Positions 6,690 to 12,353 of a stretch of DNA of 54,036 nt are shown piece by piece. How positions within the stretch are numbered: the first letter of the stretch is position 1; each line of letters opens with the position of its first letter. A program made the translations under genes and the position numbers. The notes under the pieces were generated by a model that made no database searches, had not been told where the DNA came from, and was given only the letters and a program-made list of their open reading frames with translations. Location: positions 1-54,036 of the forward strand of contig JAINDK010000094.1 in NCBI GenBank assembly GCA_019931185.1. Reading direction: 5' to 3'. This DNA is from Bryobacter sp. CoA8 C33. GTDB taxonomy: Bacteria > Acidobacteriota > Terriglobia > Bryobacterales > Bryobacteraceae.

Positions 6690-8288
6690 TCAGTGAATTT
6701 TCACCGGTGGCACCGGAACACTCTCTACCGGCGCGAATAAACTAAACGTGAACAAGGCGTTGGCATTCGCGATCGTCACATACTGTTTGCCCTCCACCAT
6801 ATAAGTAATCGGCGAGGAGTAAATTTGCGCTCCCGTCTGATAGTGATACAAATGCTTTCCCGTCCGCGAATCCAGCACGATCAGATGCCCGTCGTCGTCA
6901 CCGGAAAAGAGCAAGCCGCTCGCGGTGCCCGTTAAGCCCGCCCACATTTCCGCCTTACCTGTCATCGGATACTGCCAGCGCAAATCCCCTGTCAGCGGAT
7001 CAAACGATCGAACAAAAAACTGTCCCGGCTCATTCGGCCGCGGCCCGGCCCCGCCGCCAGCAAAGTTCGTACCCGGCTCAGGTTTCTTCGATGAGCTCGT
7101 ATAGATGTCGCATTGCTCGAGAACGACCACGCTCAGCAGACCCGTGGCCGCGTTCCAGCTCTGGCTCATCCAGTTTGTCGCCCCTCGCACTCCCGGGCAC
7201 ACACGGTTGCCCTCCGGCGTCGGATTCTTGTCCGGATTGGGAATCGGCCGCCCGTTGGCGTCAATTCCCTTGGCCCAGTCGAGTTTCTGGATCAGCGGCT
7301 GCGAGCGCAAATAGCGCCCCGTCTCGCGATCAAGCACATAGAGAAATCCATTCCGGTTGGCGTGAAACACCACTTTGCGCGGCTTTCCTTCCCAGTTCAC
7401 CTCCACCAACACCGGCCAGCTCTGCGCGTCCCAATCATGCCAGTCCCCAGGCGTGAACTGAAAGTACCACTTCATCTTCCCGGTGTCGGCATCAATCGCC
7501 AGCAGCGAACAACTGTAGAGATTGTCACCCTTGCGGTCCCCGCCATAGAAATCCGGCCACGGATTTCCCGTCGTCCAATACAGCGTGTTTGTCTCGGGAT
7601 CAAAAGTACCCGATAGCCACGTAGCCGCTCCGCCATATTCGATGTAATCGCCCCAGGTTTCGCTGCCCGGCTCACCCCGCTTCGGCACCGTGTAAGTGCG
7701 CCAGACCTCCTTGCCGCTCACCGCATCGAGCGCCGCCAGATAGCCGCGCATTCCCTCATCTCCGCCCGCCGTGCCCACAATAATCTTATCGCGAAGCGCC
7801 ACCGGCGCCGCCGAGCAAAACACCCCGTCCTTGATGTCGCCGTACTGCTTGCGCCACGCCAGACCGCCCGTCCGCCGGTCGAGCGATACCAGATGACAGT
7901 CCGCCGTCGCGAAATACACCTGATTGCCAAGAATCGCCGCCCCCCGGTTCACGGCCTCCTTCTTGGATTGCGTGTCGTTGTACTGCCAGATCACGCGTCC
8001 GCTGCGCGCATCAAGCGCATAGATCGCGTTCGTATTCGTGTAGTACATAACCCCCTCGGCCACGACCGGCCGCGCCCGCAGCCCCTTGGCTCCCGGCACC
8101 TGAAAAGTCCACTTCGGCGTCAGATTCCGGGCATTGTCCGGCGTGATCTGCACCAGCGGCGATAGCCCGCGACCCTGATAATCCCCGGCGTAAGTCAGCC
8201 AGTTCTCATTCGGGCTCTGCCGCAGAGCCTCATAGCTCACCTGCGCCTGCAGCGCGGCGGCAAACACAAGAGGAAGAAACAGTTTCAT
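6690..8288 (-). CDS. PQQ-dependent alcohol dehydrogenase (quinoprotein)
   Basis: A 532-residue periplasmic quinoprotein with a short signal peptide (residues 1-15) and an eight-bladed propeller with W-motifs such as YALDARSGRVIWQY. It oxidises alcohols and passes electrons from pyrroloquinoline quinone to cytochrome c. By family alignment the active site is Glu178 (GGDEG), Asn242 (TTGNPWP) and Asp285; the residue two further on, Asp287 (HDWDAQ), is the additional aspartate that marks lanthanide-dependent enzymes of the XoxF/PedH kind. The vicinal Cys-Cys pair typical of methanol dehydrogenases is missing (the expected place before NRG at about 114 has none). A di-haem cytochrome c gene lies 10 bases upstream in the same operon. 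Substrate is unknown. Confidence 0.92.
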   Translation of the reverse strand: MKLFLPLVFAAALQAQVSYEALRQSPNENWLTYAGDYQGRGLSPLVQITPDNARNLTPKWTFQVPGAKGLRARPVVAEGVMYYTNTNAIYALDARSGRVIWQYNDTQSKKEAVNRGAAILGNQVYFATADCHLVSLDRRTGGLAWRKQYGDIKDGVFCSAAPVALRDKIIVGTAGGDEGMRGYLAALDAVSGKEVWRTYTVPKRGEPGSETWGDYIEYGGAATWLSGTFDPETNTLYWTTGNPWPDFYGGDRKGDNLYSCSLLAIDADTGKMKWYFQFTPGDWHDWDAQSWPVLVEVNWEGKPRKVVFHANRNGFLYVLDRETGRYLRSQPLIQKLDWAKGIDANGRPIPNPDKNPTPEGNRVCPGVRGATNWMSQSWNAATGLLSVVVLEQCDIYTSSSKKPEPGTNFAGGGAGPRPNEPGQFFVRSFDPLTGDLRWQYPMTGKAEMWAGLTGTASGLLFSGDDDGHLIVLDSRTGKHLYHYQTGAQIYSSPITYMVEGKQYVTIANANALFTFSLFAPVESVPVPPVKIH

Positions 8289-8298
8289 GGGGCCATCC

Positions 8299-9069
8299 TT
8301 ATTGGGGACTCTGCTGGCGCAGAAAACTGACTAGATTGGTAATCTCTTCCCGGCTCAGGCGGGCGCCATAATCACCTGGCATCGCTGAGGTGGACTGCAA
8401 ATCCAGCGCCTCCACCTGCTTCATGTCGAGGGTCCGTAACGTACCGTCTTTTAGTTGCAACTGCAACTGATAGTTCGTCCGGTCCTTGACGAGTCCGCTC
8501 AGCTTCGCCCCGTCGCGCAAGACCACCTCGGCCCGCTCAAACCCGGGCGTGCGTTCATAATCGGGCTCGAGGATCGACCGCCGTAATTTGGGCAGCGTCG
8601 AGCTTCGCCCCACATTGGAAAGATTCGGACCTGTAAATCCCCCCTTGTCTCCAATCCGGTGGCAGGCCGAACACCCGGCGCGGCCCCAAAACAGCATCGC
8701 TCCCGCCGCCGCCGCCCCCGGCGCTTTCATTTCGATCGCCGGCGCCGTCAGAGAACGGACAAACGCAGCCAGCTCCCATCCCCGGTCTTCCGGCAGCTTG
8801 GCCGCCGGCATGATCCCAACTCCGTTCTGGATCGTTTTAAACAGCATCTCGTCGCTCATCGGATGCCACGCACCCCGCTCCACCAAGCTCGGCCCTCGCC
8901 CACCCATGCCCTCCGGGCCATGGCACCCCGCGCAGCCCCCGGCGTAGATTTTGCGCCCGGCTTCGATTCGCGCCGCATCTCCCATAAAGAGATGCCGCGC
9001 CTTCTCATCATCCTTGCCGTGCTGGGCCAGCGCCAGCACTGGTACTAAGATCCCAATCAGTTTGCCCAC
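8299..9069 (-). CDS. Di-haem cytochrome c, partner of the PQQ dehydrogenase
   Basis: A 256-residue secreted cytochrome c. After an N-terminal hydrophobic signal, two haem-binding sites are visible: CAGCH (residues 46-50) and CSACH (133-137), with likely Met ligands in MPAAKLPEDRGW and MPGDYG contexts. It presumably takes electrons from the dehydrogenase encoded 10 bases downstream and passes them to the terminal oxidase. The segment after the second haem (about 165-235, with DGAKLSGLVKDRT) resembles the haem-binding region repeated in acidobacterial and planctomycete cytochromes. Translation starts at a GTG (9069); TAGAAT lies 9 bases upstream, so the leader may be minimal. Confidence 0.9.
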   Translation of the reverse strand: MGKLIGILVPVLALAQHGKDDEKARHLFMGDAARIEAGRKIYAGGCAGCHGPEGMGGRGPSLVERGAWHPMSDEMLFKTIQNGVGIMPAAKLPEDRGWELAAFVRSLTAPAIEMKAPGAAAAGAMLFWGRAGCSACHRIGDKGGFTGPNLSNVGRSSTLPKLRRSILEPDYERTPGFERAEVVLRDGAKLSGLVKDRTNYQLQLQLKDGTLRTLDMKQVEALDLQSTSAMPGDYGARLSREEITNLVSFLRQQSPQ

Positions 9070-9400
9070 GGTACTCGGATTCTACACCCACCACGCTGCC
9101 CGAGGCGAACTGCCCAGCCCGCTTGCCCAGGCTGTCGCCCATGCCCAGCGTCCGTCTCTTTGCTCAGCCCGCCTCCCCACAGCAGCACCCAACCCGCTGC
9201 CGGCCGCAGCTCCAATTCACAACTCTTCACCCTTTCCTCCTGATAGAGTAACGTCCGAATGGCCGGCCACTCTTCAGTTCACCTTCACAGCAAGTAAACT
9301 AAAGAATCGCCTCCACCCATTCGCCAAGGCAGGCTATAAAGTTCATGGCGCTGTTCGCCGATTCCCCCCTTGGGCAAAGTGGATTGGGAGTAAATGGTTC
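9070..9400. other. Intergenic region between divergent operons
   Basis: About 330 bases between the divergent cytochrome c and amidase genes. I see no conserved gene. An open frame on the + strand runs through it in frame with the amidase but its translation is Ser/Pro/His-rich with no family resemblance. CTATAAAG near 9339 is a possible -10 for the amidase operon, without a good -35. Confidence 0.45.
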
Positions 9401-10624
9401 TTGAGTCATCTGATTCCGAGAGATGTCCTAAAGTCGATGATTGCCTCGCGGGCTTCGAAGATCGAAGATCCCGTCGAGAAGCTGCGTTTCCTCAAAACCA
9501 CGGAAAAGCGCTTCAGTCAAATCGAAGATCTTCTTCTTAGCCCCCATTTCTGGTGGTTAAGCAATCGCAAGATTTGGATCACTGTCGCCTTCCTTTTGCT
9601 GATTCCCACGCTGTCCCTGCTCCGCCGGTCCCCGCTTCCGGTTATCGACGCCTCGGCCGTGGCTGGCGGAAAACTGTCCACCGTCCGCCCCGCTCCGGAA
9701 GTACCGCTTGAGAAAGCCTATCTCATCGACAACCGCGGCGGCGTGGAAACCTGGTCGAATGGTCTTCATATTGAGACCCGCTTCACCACCAGCAACCGTC
9801 CGCGCGAGTACTATGTATGGAATCGCAACGCCCCACAAGCCTCCTTGTCCCGGCTTCCCTCTCAACAAGCCGCCGGCATCGTTTATCACACGACAGAAAG
9901 CACGCTCGAGGAACTCGAAGAAACACAATTACGCCGGCTCAAACTCCTCGGCGAATCGCTGCTTCAGTATGTCCAGAAGGAAAAGGCCTACCACTATGTC
10001 ATTGACCGCTTTGGCCGCGTCTTTCGCGTTGTCGTCGAGTCCGATGCGGCCAATCACGCCGGCAAGTCGACTTGGGCCGATGAGGAATGGGCCTATATCG
10101 GCTTGAATGATTCCTTCCTCGCCATCTCTTTTGAAACACAAACTCGCCCTGGCGATGAGTCCCCCGAGATTACCCAGGCACAAGTTGACAGCGGCCGCAT
10201 GCTCACCCGTATTCTACGCAGCCGCTACGCTATCCGCGCCTCCAATTGCGTCACCCACGCGCAGGTTTCCATCAATCCCTCCAACTTTCAGATTGGCTAT
10301 CACACCGATTGGGCCGGCAATTTCCCCTTTGAAGCCATGGGTCTGCCCGACAACTACGAGCTGCCTCTGGCCAGCCTATTCCTGTTTGGCTTTAGTTATG
10401 ACGGCACTTTCTTTGCCGCAACCGGGGCGCGCATGTGGAAAGGAGTCGTCTCCAGTGAAGACCTTCTGCGGTCCCGGGCTGGAAAAGATTCCATTTCTGT
10501 CGCGCAGCTCCGCACCCAGTTGCGCAACCAGTACCGCCGGTTGAGCGCCTTGTTGCCTGAGAGCAACGAGCCGGCCGGCACAACCGATTCGCGTGCGAGC
10601 AATCCTCGCCAGGAGAACCCATGA
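9401..10624 (+). CDS. Membrane-anchored N-acetylmuramoyl-L-alanine amidase-like protein
   Basis: About 407 residues. A helical N-terminal part (1-55) is followed by one membrane segment (about 58-75) and a C-terminal amidase_2/PGRP-type domain (about 155-315) placed outside the membrane. Candidate zinc ligands are His163 (VYHTTES), His286 (CVTHAQV) and His301 or Asp303 (GYHTDWAGNFP), with the family-like stretches YHYVIDRFGRVFRV and ANHAGKS. Such domains cut the peptide stem from peptidoglycan glycan chains. The TTG at 9401 is chosen because GGGAG lies 10 bases before it; ATG at 9437 is the alternative. The stop overlaps the start of the actin-like gene by 4 bases (ATGA), so the two are translationally coupled. 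Whether the zinc site is complete is uncertain. Confidence 0.75.
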   Translation: MSHLIPRDVLKSMIASRASKIEDPVEKLRFLKTTEKRFSQIEDLLLSPHFWWLSNRKIWITVAFLLLIPTLSLLRRSPLPVIDASAVAGGKLSTVRPAPEVPLEKAYLIDNRGGVETWSNGLHIETRFTTSNRPREYYVWNRNAPQASLSRLPSQQAAGIVYHTTESTLEELEETQLRRLKLLGESLLQYVQKEKAYHYVIDRFGRVFRVVVESDAANHAGKSTWADEEWAYIGLNDSFLAISFETQTRPGDESPEITQAQVDSGRMLTRILRSRYAIRASNCVTHAQVSINPSNFQIGYHTDWAGNFPFEAMGLPDNYELPLASLFLFGFSYDGTFFAATGARMWKGVVSSEDLLRSRAGKDSISVAQLRTQLRNQYRRLSALLPESNEPAGTTDSRASNPRQENP

Positions 10625-11634
10625 AACAAACCCAACAAACCCCCGCCATCGGACTCGATGTCGGCACCAGCCGTATCGTCGCCGCCGTGCAAAATGGCGA
10701 TCAGTTCCTGTTCAAAAGTCAGTTGAACGCCTTCGTCGAAGTTCCCTGGTCGAAGATGACCGAGGCGTCGCTGAAGCGCGAAAGCGTCCCCTTCGTCGTC
10801 TCCGGTGAGGGCTTTGAGAAGAAGATAATTGTGCCTGGAAACGAAAGCTCGCGCTTCGCCGACTTGCTTCAGTCTGAAAGTCGCCGTCCGATGAACCGCG
10901 GCGTGCTCAATCCAACCGAACCCGAGAACGCGATCATGCTCAAGCAGTTGATCGAAAACCTCACTGAGGGCGTGCGGAGCCCCGGCATTCCTGTTTATTA
11001 CAGCGTTCCCGCCGCCCCGCTCGGCGCCGAGGAAAACCTCACCTACCACGATGCCTCGATCGCCCAAATCCTGCGGGAACTCGGCTGCGAGCCCACGCCC
11101 ATCAACGAAGGCCTCGCTGTCGTCTTCAGTGAATTGGAAGAAACCAATTATTCCGGCATCGGCATCAGCTTCGGCGGCGGCCTCGTCAACGTCTGCTTGA
11201 GCTACCTCGCCGTCCCCGTCCTAAGCTTTAGCGTCGCCAAGGCCGGCGATTATATCGATTCCTCGGCGGCCTCCATCACCGGCGAGCTCACCACGCGCAT
11301 CCGCCTCGCCAAGGAAGAGTCCTTCCAACTCAATGGCCCCTTCCATGACAAGCTCCATCAGGTTCTCAACGTTTACTACGATGAGGTCATTCGCGCCGTT
11401 TGCTCCGGCCTCAAGGAAGCCTTCTCCAACTCCCGCAATATCCCCAAAATGGGCCGCCCTGTTCCCATGGTCCTCTCCGGCGGCACCACCCTGCCCAAGG
11501 GCTTCCGCGACCGCTTCGAAAAAGTCCTCAAGGAACTCGACTTTCCCCTGCCCCTTAGCGAAATCCGCATGGCCCAGGCCCCGCTCAACTCAACGGCCAA
11601 GGGCGCCCTCGTCGCCGCCCTCGCCGAAATGTAA
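10621..11634 (+). CDS. Actin-like ATPase
   Basis: A 337-residue protein of the actin/Hsp70/FtsA superfamily. The phosphate-1 loop is AIGLDVGTSRIVAA (residues 9-22), the phosphate-2 loop GIGISFGGGLVNV (179-191) and the adenosine motif VLSGGTTLPKGF (284-295). It is not a standard MreB (no membrane-insertion or MreB motifs) and is closer in length to plasmid or magnetosome actin-like proteins; I cannot place it in a named subfamily. It is translationally coupled to the preceding membrane-anchored amidase and followed by a strong terminator, so these two form a complete operon. A filament that positions or controls cell-wall cleavage is the simplest inference. Confidence 0.82.
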   Translation: MKQTQQTPAIGLDVGTSRIVAAVQNGDQFLFKSQLNAFVEVPWSKMTEASLKRESVPFVVSGEGFEKKIIVPGNESSRFADLLQSESRRPMNRGVLNPTEPENAIMLKQLIENLTEGVRSPGIPVYYSVPAAPLGAEENLTYHDASIAQILRELGCEPTPINEGLAVVFSELEETNYSGIGISFGGGLVNVCLSYLAVPVLSFSVAKAGDYIDSSAASITGELTTRIRLAKEESFQLNGPFHDKLHQVLNVYYDEVIRAVCSGLKEAFSNSRNIPKMGRPVPMVLSGGTTLPKGFRDRFEKVLKELDFPLPLSEIRMAQAPLNSTAKGALVAALAEM

Positions 11635-11661: not shown

Positions 11662-11696
11662 CGCCCGCCGGCCACACGCCGGCGGGCGTTGCTTTT
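11662..11696 (+). terminator. Terminator of the amidase/actin-like operon
   Basis: An 11-bp perfect GC-rich stem, CGCCCGCCGGC (11662-11672) and GCCGGCGGGCG (11678-11688), with a 5-base loop and a T-rich tail (TTGCTTTT). It lies 28 bases after the actin-like stop. Confidence 0.9.
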
Positions 11697-11701
11697 ACTG
11701 C

Positions 11702-12277: not shown

Positions 12278-12353
12278 TGGTGGGCCCTGCTGGATTCGAA
12301 CCAGCAACCAAAGGATTATGAGTCCTCTGCACTAACCGTTGTGCTAAGGGCCC
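12278..12353 (-). tRNA. tRNA-Ile (anticodon CAT, lysidine-modified type)
   Basis: A 76-base tRNA with encoded CCA. Acceptor stem GGGCCCT/AGGGCCC, D arm GCAC...GTGC, anticodon stem GAGGA with loop CTCATAA (anticodon CAT), T arm CTGG-TTCGAAT-CCAG. CAT anticodons occur in initiator Met, elongator Met and tRNA-Ile2. The body (TTAGC...GGTTAG.GCAG..GACTCATAATC.CTTGGT.GCTGGTTC pattern) is close to E. coli tRNA-Ile2 (ileX), which reads AUA after TilS converts C34 to lysidine. Initiator features (C1-A72 mismatch, three G-C pairs in the anticodon stem) are absent. Confidence 0.93.

Follow-up and report, generated by a model that had tools for sequence, protein, structure and literature searches.

A volactin encoded with a predicted membrane-anchored peptidoglycan amidase in Bryobacterales, and a candidate docking motif between the two proteins

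Haloferax is a haloarchaeon and has no peptidoglycan. It is also the genus from which the actin homologue volactin was named, and in the accessible text of the source the volactin of Haloferax volcanii (VolA) is described as forming dynamic filaments in cells, contacting the membrane via the tips of these filaments and being required for timely acquisition of the disk shape (PMC10869688). A role of VolA in tissue is mentioned in the accessible part of a further source (PMC7617734). The family of VolA also includes, over its full length, the second of two products (ORF 1 and ORF 2) encoded together in the DNA analysed here, a stretch of 54,036 nucleotides from Bryobacter sp. CoA8 C33 that is referred to below as the window. 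In two haloarchaeal genera volactin also follows a gene for a membrane protein, as it does in the window. However, VolA acts in the disk shape of an archaeon, and the neighbour examined on haloarchaeal plasmids is a DUF7139 protein and not an amidase.

In bacteria, actin homologues have been linked to wall proteins in other ways. In Bacillus subtilis, MreBH interacts with the wall hydrolase LytE and governs its site of action (PMC3817527, accessible text). The original prediction knew of no described system with a dedicated actin homologue encoded with its own anchored wall hydrolase. MreBH-LytE is a precedent for an actin homologue governing a wall hydrolase; MreBH is a paralogue of MreB, however, and the accessible description contains neither a dedicated operon nor a bitopic anchored amidase (PMC3817527). 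In Escherichia coli, the actin-like protein FtsA recruits the bitopic wall protein FtsN via a short cytoplasmic domain (PMC9426451, accessible text). FtsA belongs to another actin family than volactin. Moreover, FtsN is not an enzyme, whereas the periplasmic part of the window protein is the amidase itself. The arrangement proposed here for the pair would be wired like FtsA-FtsN and serve a purpose like that of MreBH-LytE, and is neither one. The zinc amidases AmpD, AmiD, AmpDh2 and AmpDh3 have their fold and conserved, putative ligand positions in common with ORF 1, which differs from these enzymes in having a cytosolic segment with a conserved motif, followed by a membrane helix, N-terminal to the domain. 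Giant bacteria have an actin close to MamK and additional to MreB, termed Bbp (big bacteria protein), whose gene cluster has a Kelch-domain protein (PMC10580974, accessible text); Bbp and volactin are compared here by description. The volactin and amidase families are both known. A report of their pairing was not found among the papers listed in literature searches on volactin, DUF7139 and bacterial actins (with few subscription papers). The gene pair, the extent to which it is conserved and the motif all seem to be new.

Locus layout and its two products

The source assembly has a size of 5.05 Mb, and the closest named loci, with volactins 82-86% identical, come from Acidobacteria MAGs, three of six being titled Bryobacter sp. 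or Bryobacteraceae. The features of the locus are collected in Table 1. The two-gene layout that had been claimed is borne out by both the ATGA overlap and a strong 3' terminator, the latter with an 11-bp stem composed entirely of G+C, followed by TTGCTTTTAC (fold z = -3.3). A sigma-70-like promoter was not found at the locus by a simple scan. Downstream of the pair lies a tRNA-Met (cat) gene on the minus strand (12278-12353), and upstream, on the opposite strand (6690-9069), PQQ-type dehydrogenase-like and cytochrome c-like genes were recognised by eye.

Table 1. Features of the amidase-volactin locus, in positions of the window
Feature	Position	Strand	Remarks
GGGAG, ribosome-binding-like	9386..9390	+	10 nt 5' of the TTG start; seen by reading the sequence
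Amidase gene (ORF 1)	9401 (TTG)..10624	+	407 aa, membrane-anchored Amidase_2 protein
Codons of motif IEDPVEKLRFLK (amidase aa 21-32)	9461..9496	+	Proposed volactin-docking site (candidate)
Membrane helix, ~aa 56-76	9566..9628	+	From hydropathy
Amidase_2 match, aa 156-289	9866..10267	+	4.4e-13, 50.2 bits, Pfam cut-off 26
Putative zinc ligands H163, H286 and D303	H163 and H286 within Amidase_2 match; D303 just behind, 10307-10309	+	
ATGA, shared by amidase stop and volactin start codons	10621..10624	+	
Volactin gene (ORF 2)	10621 (ATG)..11634	+	337 aa
Phosphate-1 loop GLDVGTSR (volactin aa 11-18)	10651..10674	+	G11, D13, G15, T16 invariant in alignment
Phosphate-2 loop GIGISFGGGLVN (volactin aa 179-190)	11155..11190	+	Ser183 at MamK Asp position
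Intrinsic terminator	11662..11697	+	Stem at 11662-11688, then a T-rich tail

The actin-like protein had been left without a family name. It is in fact a full-length Volactin, of the family of the shape actin VolA, matching Pfam PF25216 at 8.2e-76 (256 bits, cut-off 35) over model positions 2-321 of 321. That it is not MreB was claimed correctly (13.8 bits against a TIGR00904 cut-off of 365.75), and an MreB scoring 496.7 bits is encoded separately in the same genome. MamK is likewise ruled out (23.6 bits, NF040964 cut-off 400), and the salactin score of 12.9 bits is far under its cut-off of 400. The AlphaFold2 model of ORF 2 (pLDDT 83.8, pTM 0.83) has an actin-type fold, and the structural comparison that was run as a check on the assignment returned MreB/Mbl (Foldseek 3.9e-15), MamK (TM 0.71) and BeeR (TM 0.73); the nearest solved relative by profile is MamK (5e-9). 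All three nucleotide motifs of the actin fold had been claimed. The phosphate-1 loop is present and E163 is retained as well, but the phosphate-2 loop is not canonical: in an alignment with MamK, the Asp of the latter (DIGAG) is replaced by Ser183, a residue that is invariant in a 12-row volactin alignment including haloarchaeal and huge-phage members.

The first protein was described from the outset as an amidase with one membrane helix, and both the Amidase_2 match and a hydrophobic stretch at about aa 56-76 are found. The top 19-residue Kyte-Doolittle means in ORF 1 (1.68) begin at aa 56 and 57, and the structural model has helices at 48-54 and 56-66 in the membrane region, at low confidence. 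The approximately 55 residues N-terminal to the membrane helix contain 10 K/R and 7 D/E and are taken as cytosolic, although a cleaved signal peptide may be the alternative to a membrane anchor.

Pairing of volactin and amidase across the order and the phylum

In a sample of 160 genomes of the order, 94 encode volactin, 95 the amidase and 93 both, with a co-occurrence p of 3.6e-41 (Fisher) that is not to be taken literally because the genomes are related and hence non-independent. In the one genome with volactin alone (G680) the gene is a fragment at the edge of a contig. The two with the amidase alone (G721 and G741) are 84 and 87% complete. All four other genomes of the source genus in this sample carry both genes. 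With both present in 93 of the 160 and three exceptions, pairing by chance is rejected. An amidase was counted in the order above 200 bits, with at most 11 candidates scored per genome, and in the phylum a strong match was one above 300 bits, with at most six; some absences may be misses because the candidates were limited in this way. The order counts omit second pieces of split genes (volactin in G686, G738 and G752; amidase in G677 and G614), a partial volactin that does not reach the cut-off (G630) and amidase matches of 20.9-45.2 bits in G628, G644 (twice), G647, G664, G688, G719, G734 and G750. If these were counted, G628 and G647 would be amidase genomes without volactin, and G644 an amidase genome with it.

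The two genes are mostly neighbours. Of the 99 places at which the amidase is encoded, 79 lie upstream of volactin on the same strand (76 of them no more than 150 nt away and the other three no more than 2.5 kb), 15 are divergent, one is downstream and four have no volactin on the contig. Conversely, 95 of 106 volactin places share a contig with the amidase; the other 11 are mostly second copies or pieces, with another copy in the same genome. Conservation of the pair side by side across the order, which had been proposed as a check, is thus seen, and the idea of an actin-family protein with its own dedicated, anchored amidase extends far beyond close relatives.

Similar results were obtained for the phylum, where 17 of 297 genomes have a volactin over the cut-off, 14 a strong amidase match and 13 both (Fisher p = 2e-18). 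The amidase-only genome (G148) has its gene at a contig edge, and a strong amidase match is absent from the volactin genomes G290, G266, G146 and G062. In G267 volactin and amidase lie on separate contigs, so co-inheritance needs no adjacency. A sequence search gave 26 loci, 24 of them with a full or nearly full volactin. All but one of these 24 have an amidase relative adjoining volactin (23 loci: 21 with the amidase gene upstream on the same strand and two, L022 and L023, with it divergent); in L018 it was not found beside volactin. Over 33 pairs, the distance matrices of the two proteins are correlated (r = 0.84; permutation p = 0.0005), with shared descent included in the correlation. One locus with its amidase in two frames (L001) was left out of the conservation and mirror-tree counts. 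Elsewhere, L102 was dropped as a duplicate, and some ORF clusters judged to be nested or antisense were dropped from the neighbourhood comparison. In five acidobacterial loci (L073, L075, L077, L083 and L084) a further protein is encoded 5' of the amidase gene, and the one member scanned, from L073, has a SPOR domain (2.7e-16). Its position beside an amidase fits, because SPOR domains bind glycans bared by amidases (PMC9426451, accessible text).

The cytosolic motif and the proposed role of the pair

Within the N-terminal region of the amidase lies a motif with the consensus [ILF]-x-[DNSR]-P-x-x-[KR]-L-x-[FY]-[LI], in which P24 and L28 are present in all 26 amidase representatives (<60% identical). 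The conservation of aa 17-34 among these representatives amounts to 2.59 bits per column and nearly equals that of the catalytic domain (2.86). The flanking segments aa 1-16 and aa 35-53 have only 1.33 and 1.14 bits, and the membrane helix has 1.46. In the model of ORF 1 it stands at the start of a helix spanning aa 24-45. A motif scan gave 55 matches in 58 loci, 48 in amidases and seven elsewhere, and none in 160 viral loci. Of the seven, three (L290, L291, L293) are duplicates of L280-L282 and another is a truncated amidase, which leaves three distinct small ORFs. These lie just before volactin in three genomes of one genus (G734, G688 and G750; 72, 94 and 74 aa), in which the amidase gene is divergent, and they contain only the motif and a hydrophobic helix. 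Differences between the G688 and G734 copies fall 19, 20 and 26 by codon position in 70 codons, a weak bias, and a decayed copy is present in another genus (G709). As far as can be read from their sequences, the small ORFs may be the anchor alone, a mini-protein of that one genus.

It seems fairly probable that this cytosolic motif is what allows volactin filaments to hold a trans-envelope peptidoglycan amidase and to determine its place. The two gene products would then form one machine across the inner membrane. Volactin would polymerise into cytoplasmic filaments, the amidase would cross the membrane once with about 55 residues inside, and its cytosolic helix with the motif would bind volactin. 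The filament would in this way gather, position and perhaps gate the periplasmic zinc amidase, which is predicted to cut stem peptides off peptidoglycan, and the outcome would be local wall remodelling linked to cell shape, a role in shape being suggested by analogy with VolA of Haloferax. That a filament gathers the amidase was already part of the original prediction and, with the conserved cytosolic motif as the likely means, appears better founded now; the two purposes first suggested, septation and the fitting of a large machine into the wall, are speculative.

Both genes might instead be co-inherited without any contact between their products, as parts of a shared pathway in which each serves cell shape and the motif binds another target or aids insertion into the membrane. 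The likeness of the motif between the partner families of different volactins (see below) is only suggestive, which is compatible with such an explanation. However, the 93 co-occurrences against three exceptions in 160 genomes, the continued proximity of the two genes even in divergent arrangements and the separation of the conserved motif from a variable membrane helix all speak against it, and a shared pathway without contact is considered unlikely.

The ORF 1 model (pLDDT 79.4) matches AmpD, AmiD and AmpDh2/AmpDh3 at 2e-7 to 3e-6, with TM-scores by target of 0.47-0.61 for the four. The AmpD equivalog itself (NF008758) is ruled out (27.5 bits, cut-off 143). Across 22 aligned amidase homologues H163, E245, H286, H301 and D303 are invariant. 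H286 is aligned with a His of AmiD and AmpDh3, and H163 and D303 are presumed, from their position and the anatomy of AmpD, to be the other zinc ligands. The zinc site, which had been singled out as a check, is a putative one with conserved candidate ligands in an AmpD/AmiD-like model. None of the three outcomes named in the original prediction as refuting it was observed. It is also conceivable that this domain binds peptidoglycan fragments and reports the state of the wall to the filament, in the fashion of PGRP-like receptors and as a sensor instead of an effector. PGRP domains are also among the structural matches of the model, and His301 presumably sits at the position of the catalytic Lys of AmpD, which we assume could lower activity. 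Against this stand the invariance of H163, H286, D303 and E245 in the 22 rows and best structural matches that are all enzymes, and a sensor is regarded as improbable, while an amidase positioned by volactin is the preferred reading.

Volactins elsewhere and the reach of the motif

In a volactin tree, from which 11 near-duplicates were left out, the volactins with this amidase fall into one 33-row group (support 100/98). The group includes one gammaproteobacterial MAG (L024), as a result of either transfer or misbinning, and four members for which an adjoining amidase relative was not found (L018, L074, L081, L086). Outside it are 21 phage, two haloarchaeal and 12 other proteobacterial rows, together with an acidobacterial row (L070). 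Volactin is fused in frame to a response-regulator receiver in L081 and to an HU-like DNA-binding domain in L082.

In the proteobacterial set, which was drawn from the phylum of the genome of L024 (G297, titled Gammaproteobacteria), volactin is over the cut-off in 16 of 299 genomes. Fourteen loci were examined, the two other genomes being G297 itself and one with a contig-edge fragment. In 12 of them (L090-L101) the genes ahead of volactin encode a FimV-like and a small membrane protein, whereas the neighbours differ in L088 and L089. FimV_N was matched by both FimV-like members that were scanned (5.7e-9 and 1.1e-9), and the cytosolic C-terminal tails of the FimV-like and small membrane proteins are alike (hhalign P = 1.5e-7, 11 and 12 tails; the FimV-like set omits L100 and, from L090 and L097, the two far FimV-like copies). 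Haloarchaeal plasmid volactins are 37% identical to ORF 2, and on plasmids of Haloarcula and Natrinema the gene just before volactin codes for a long-tailed DUF7139 protein. This membrane protein is a candidate for the archaeal anchor. In L052 and L053 its tail appears by eye to be repeat-rich and acidic.

At least 584 viral stretches in IMG/VR encode volactin relatives, and some of the contigs exceed 400 kb (L054, L055, L120-L279). For about 10 of 21 phage representatives the gene upstream of volactin has, by eye, a KL-like C-terminal tail, in several cases preceded by a FIP-like stretch. The phage volactin L161 branches as the sister lineage of the entire proteobacterial set (100/100), a placement that hints at exchange between phage and host. 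That the pair of the window is itself a phage-derived or phage-directed cassette, as the number of viral relatives and the grouping of proteobacterial volactins with one phage row might suggest, is very improbable, given that none of the 21 phage rows falls in the 33-row group holding the window's volactin and that a search of about 6 kb around two phage volactins and two from haloarchaeal plasmids found no amidase relative. A defence system was also considered and rejected, a PADLOC match not being found.

Aligned without gaps, IEDPVEKLRFLK of the window, VEDVARKLASMQ of a proteobacterial tail and VDDQTAKLKELR of a Natrinema tail look alike. Scored with a PSSM built from the acidobacterial motif, two DUF7139 tails had p = 0.002 (0 of 500 shuffles reached the score) and p = 0.014, a phage tail had 0.26 and 26 proteobacterial tails had 0.024 to 0.74, all of these p-values being post hoc because the likeness was first noticed by eye. 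Three of the 26 proteobacterial tails are below 0.06, with a best site other than the KL motif in two of them (L099 and L101), and the other 23 are not significant (0.07 to 0.74); the KL motif is the best-scoring site in 18 of the 26, which are related to each other. A profile of the proteobacterial tails compared with phage neighbours returned 13 ORFs with E-values no higher than 5, all of them above 0.1, and no enrichment beside volactin was found among these (2 of 13). A regex fixed earlier matched near the C terminus in only two (L054 and L182) of about 10 KL-tailed phage representatives, one of which had suggested the regex. The likeness across partner families is thus suggestive at most. 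Docking by the motif appears reasonably supported inside the acidobacterial pair; elsewhere it is only a lead, since the motif tests are mixed and the phage test is negative. A general rule, under which all volactins of archaea, bacteria and huge phages dock a clade-specific partner via a short intracellular helix of the form [IV]-[DE]-D-x-x-x-K-L-x-x-[LM]-[KRQ], is rather less likely than not; the partners would be the wall amidase, the FimV-like protein, DUF7139 and a protein of the phage structural region.

The amidase is a candidate partner of volactin with a putative binding site of 12 residues, and what volactin holds onto therefore becomes directly testable. If the proposed role is true, the pair would directly link a cytoplasmic filament to a wall-cutting enzyme. 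If the general rule were also true, one actin would be re-used by a swap of partners in wall cutting, envelope building, archaeal shape and phage assembly.
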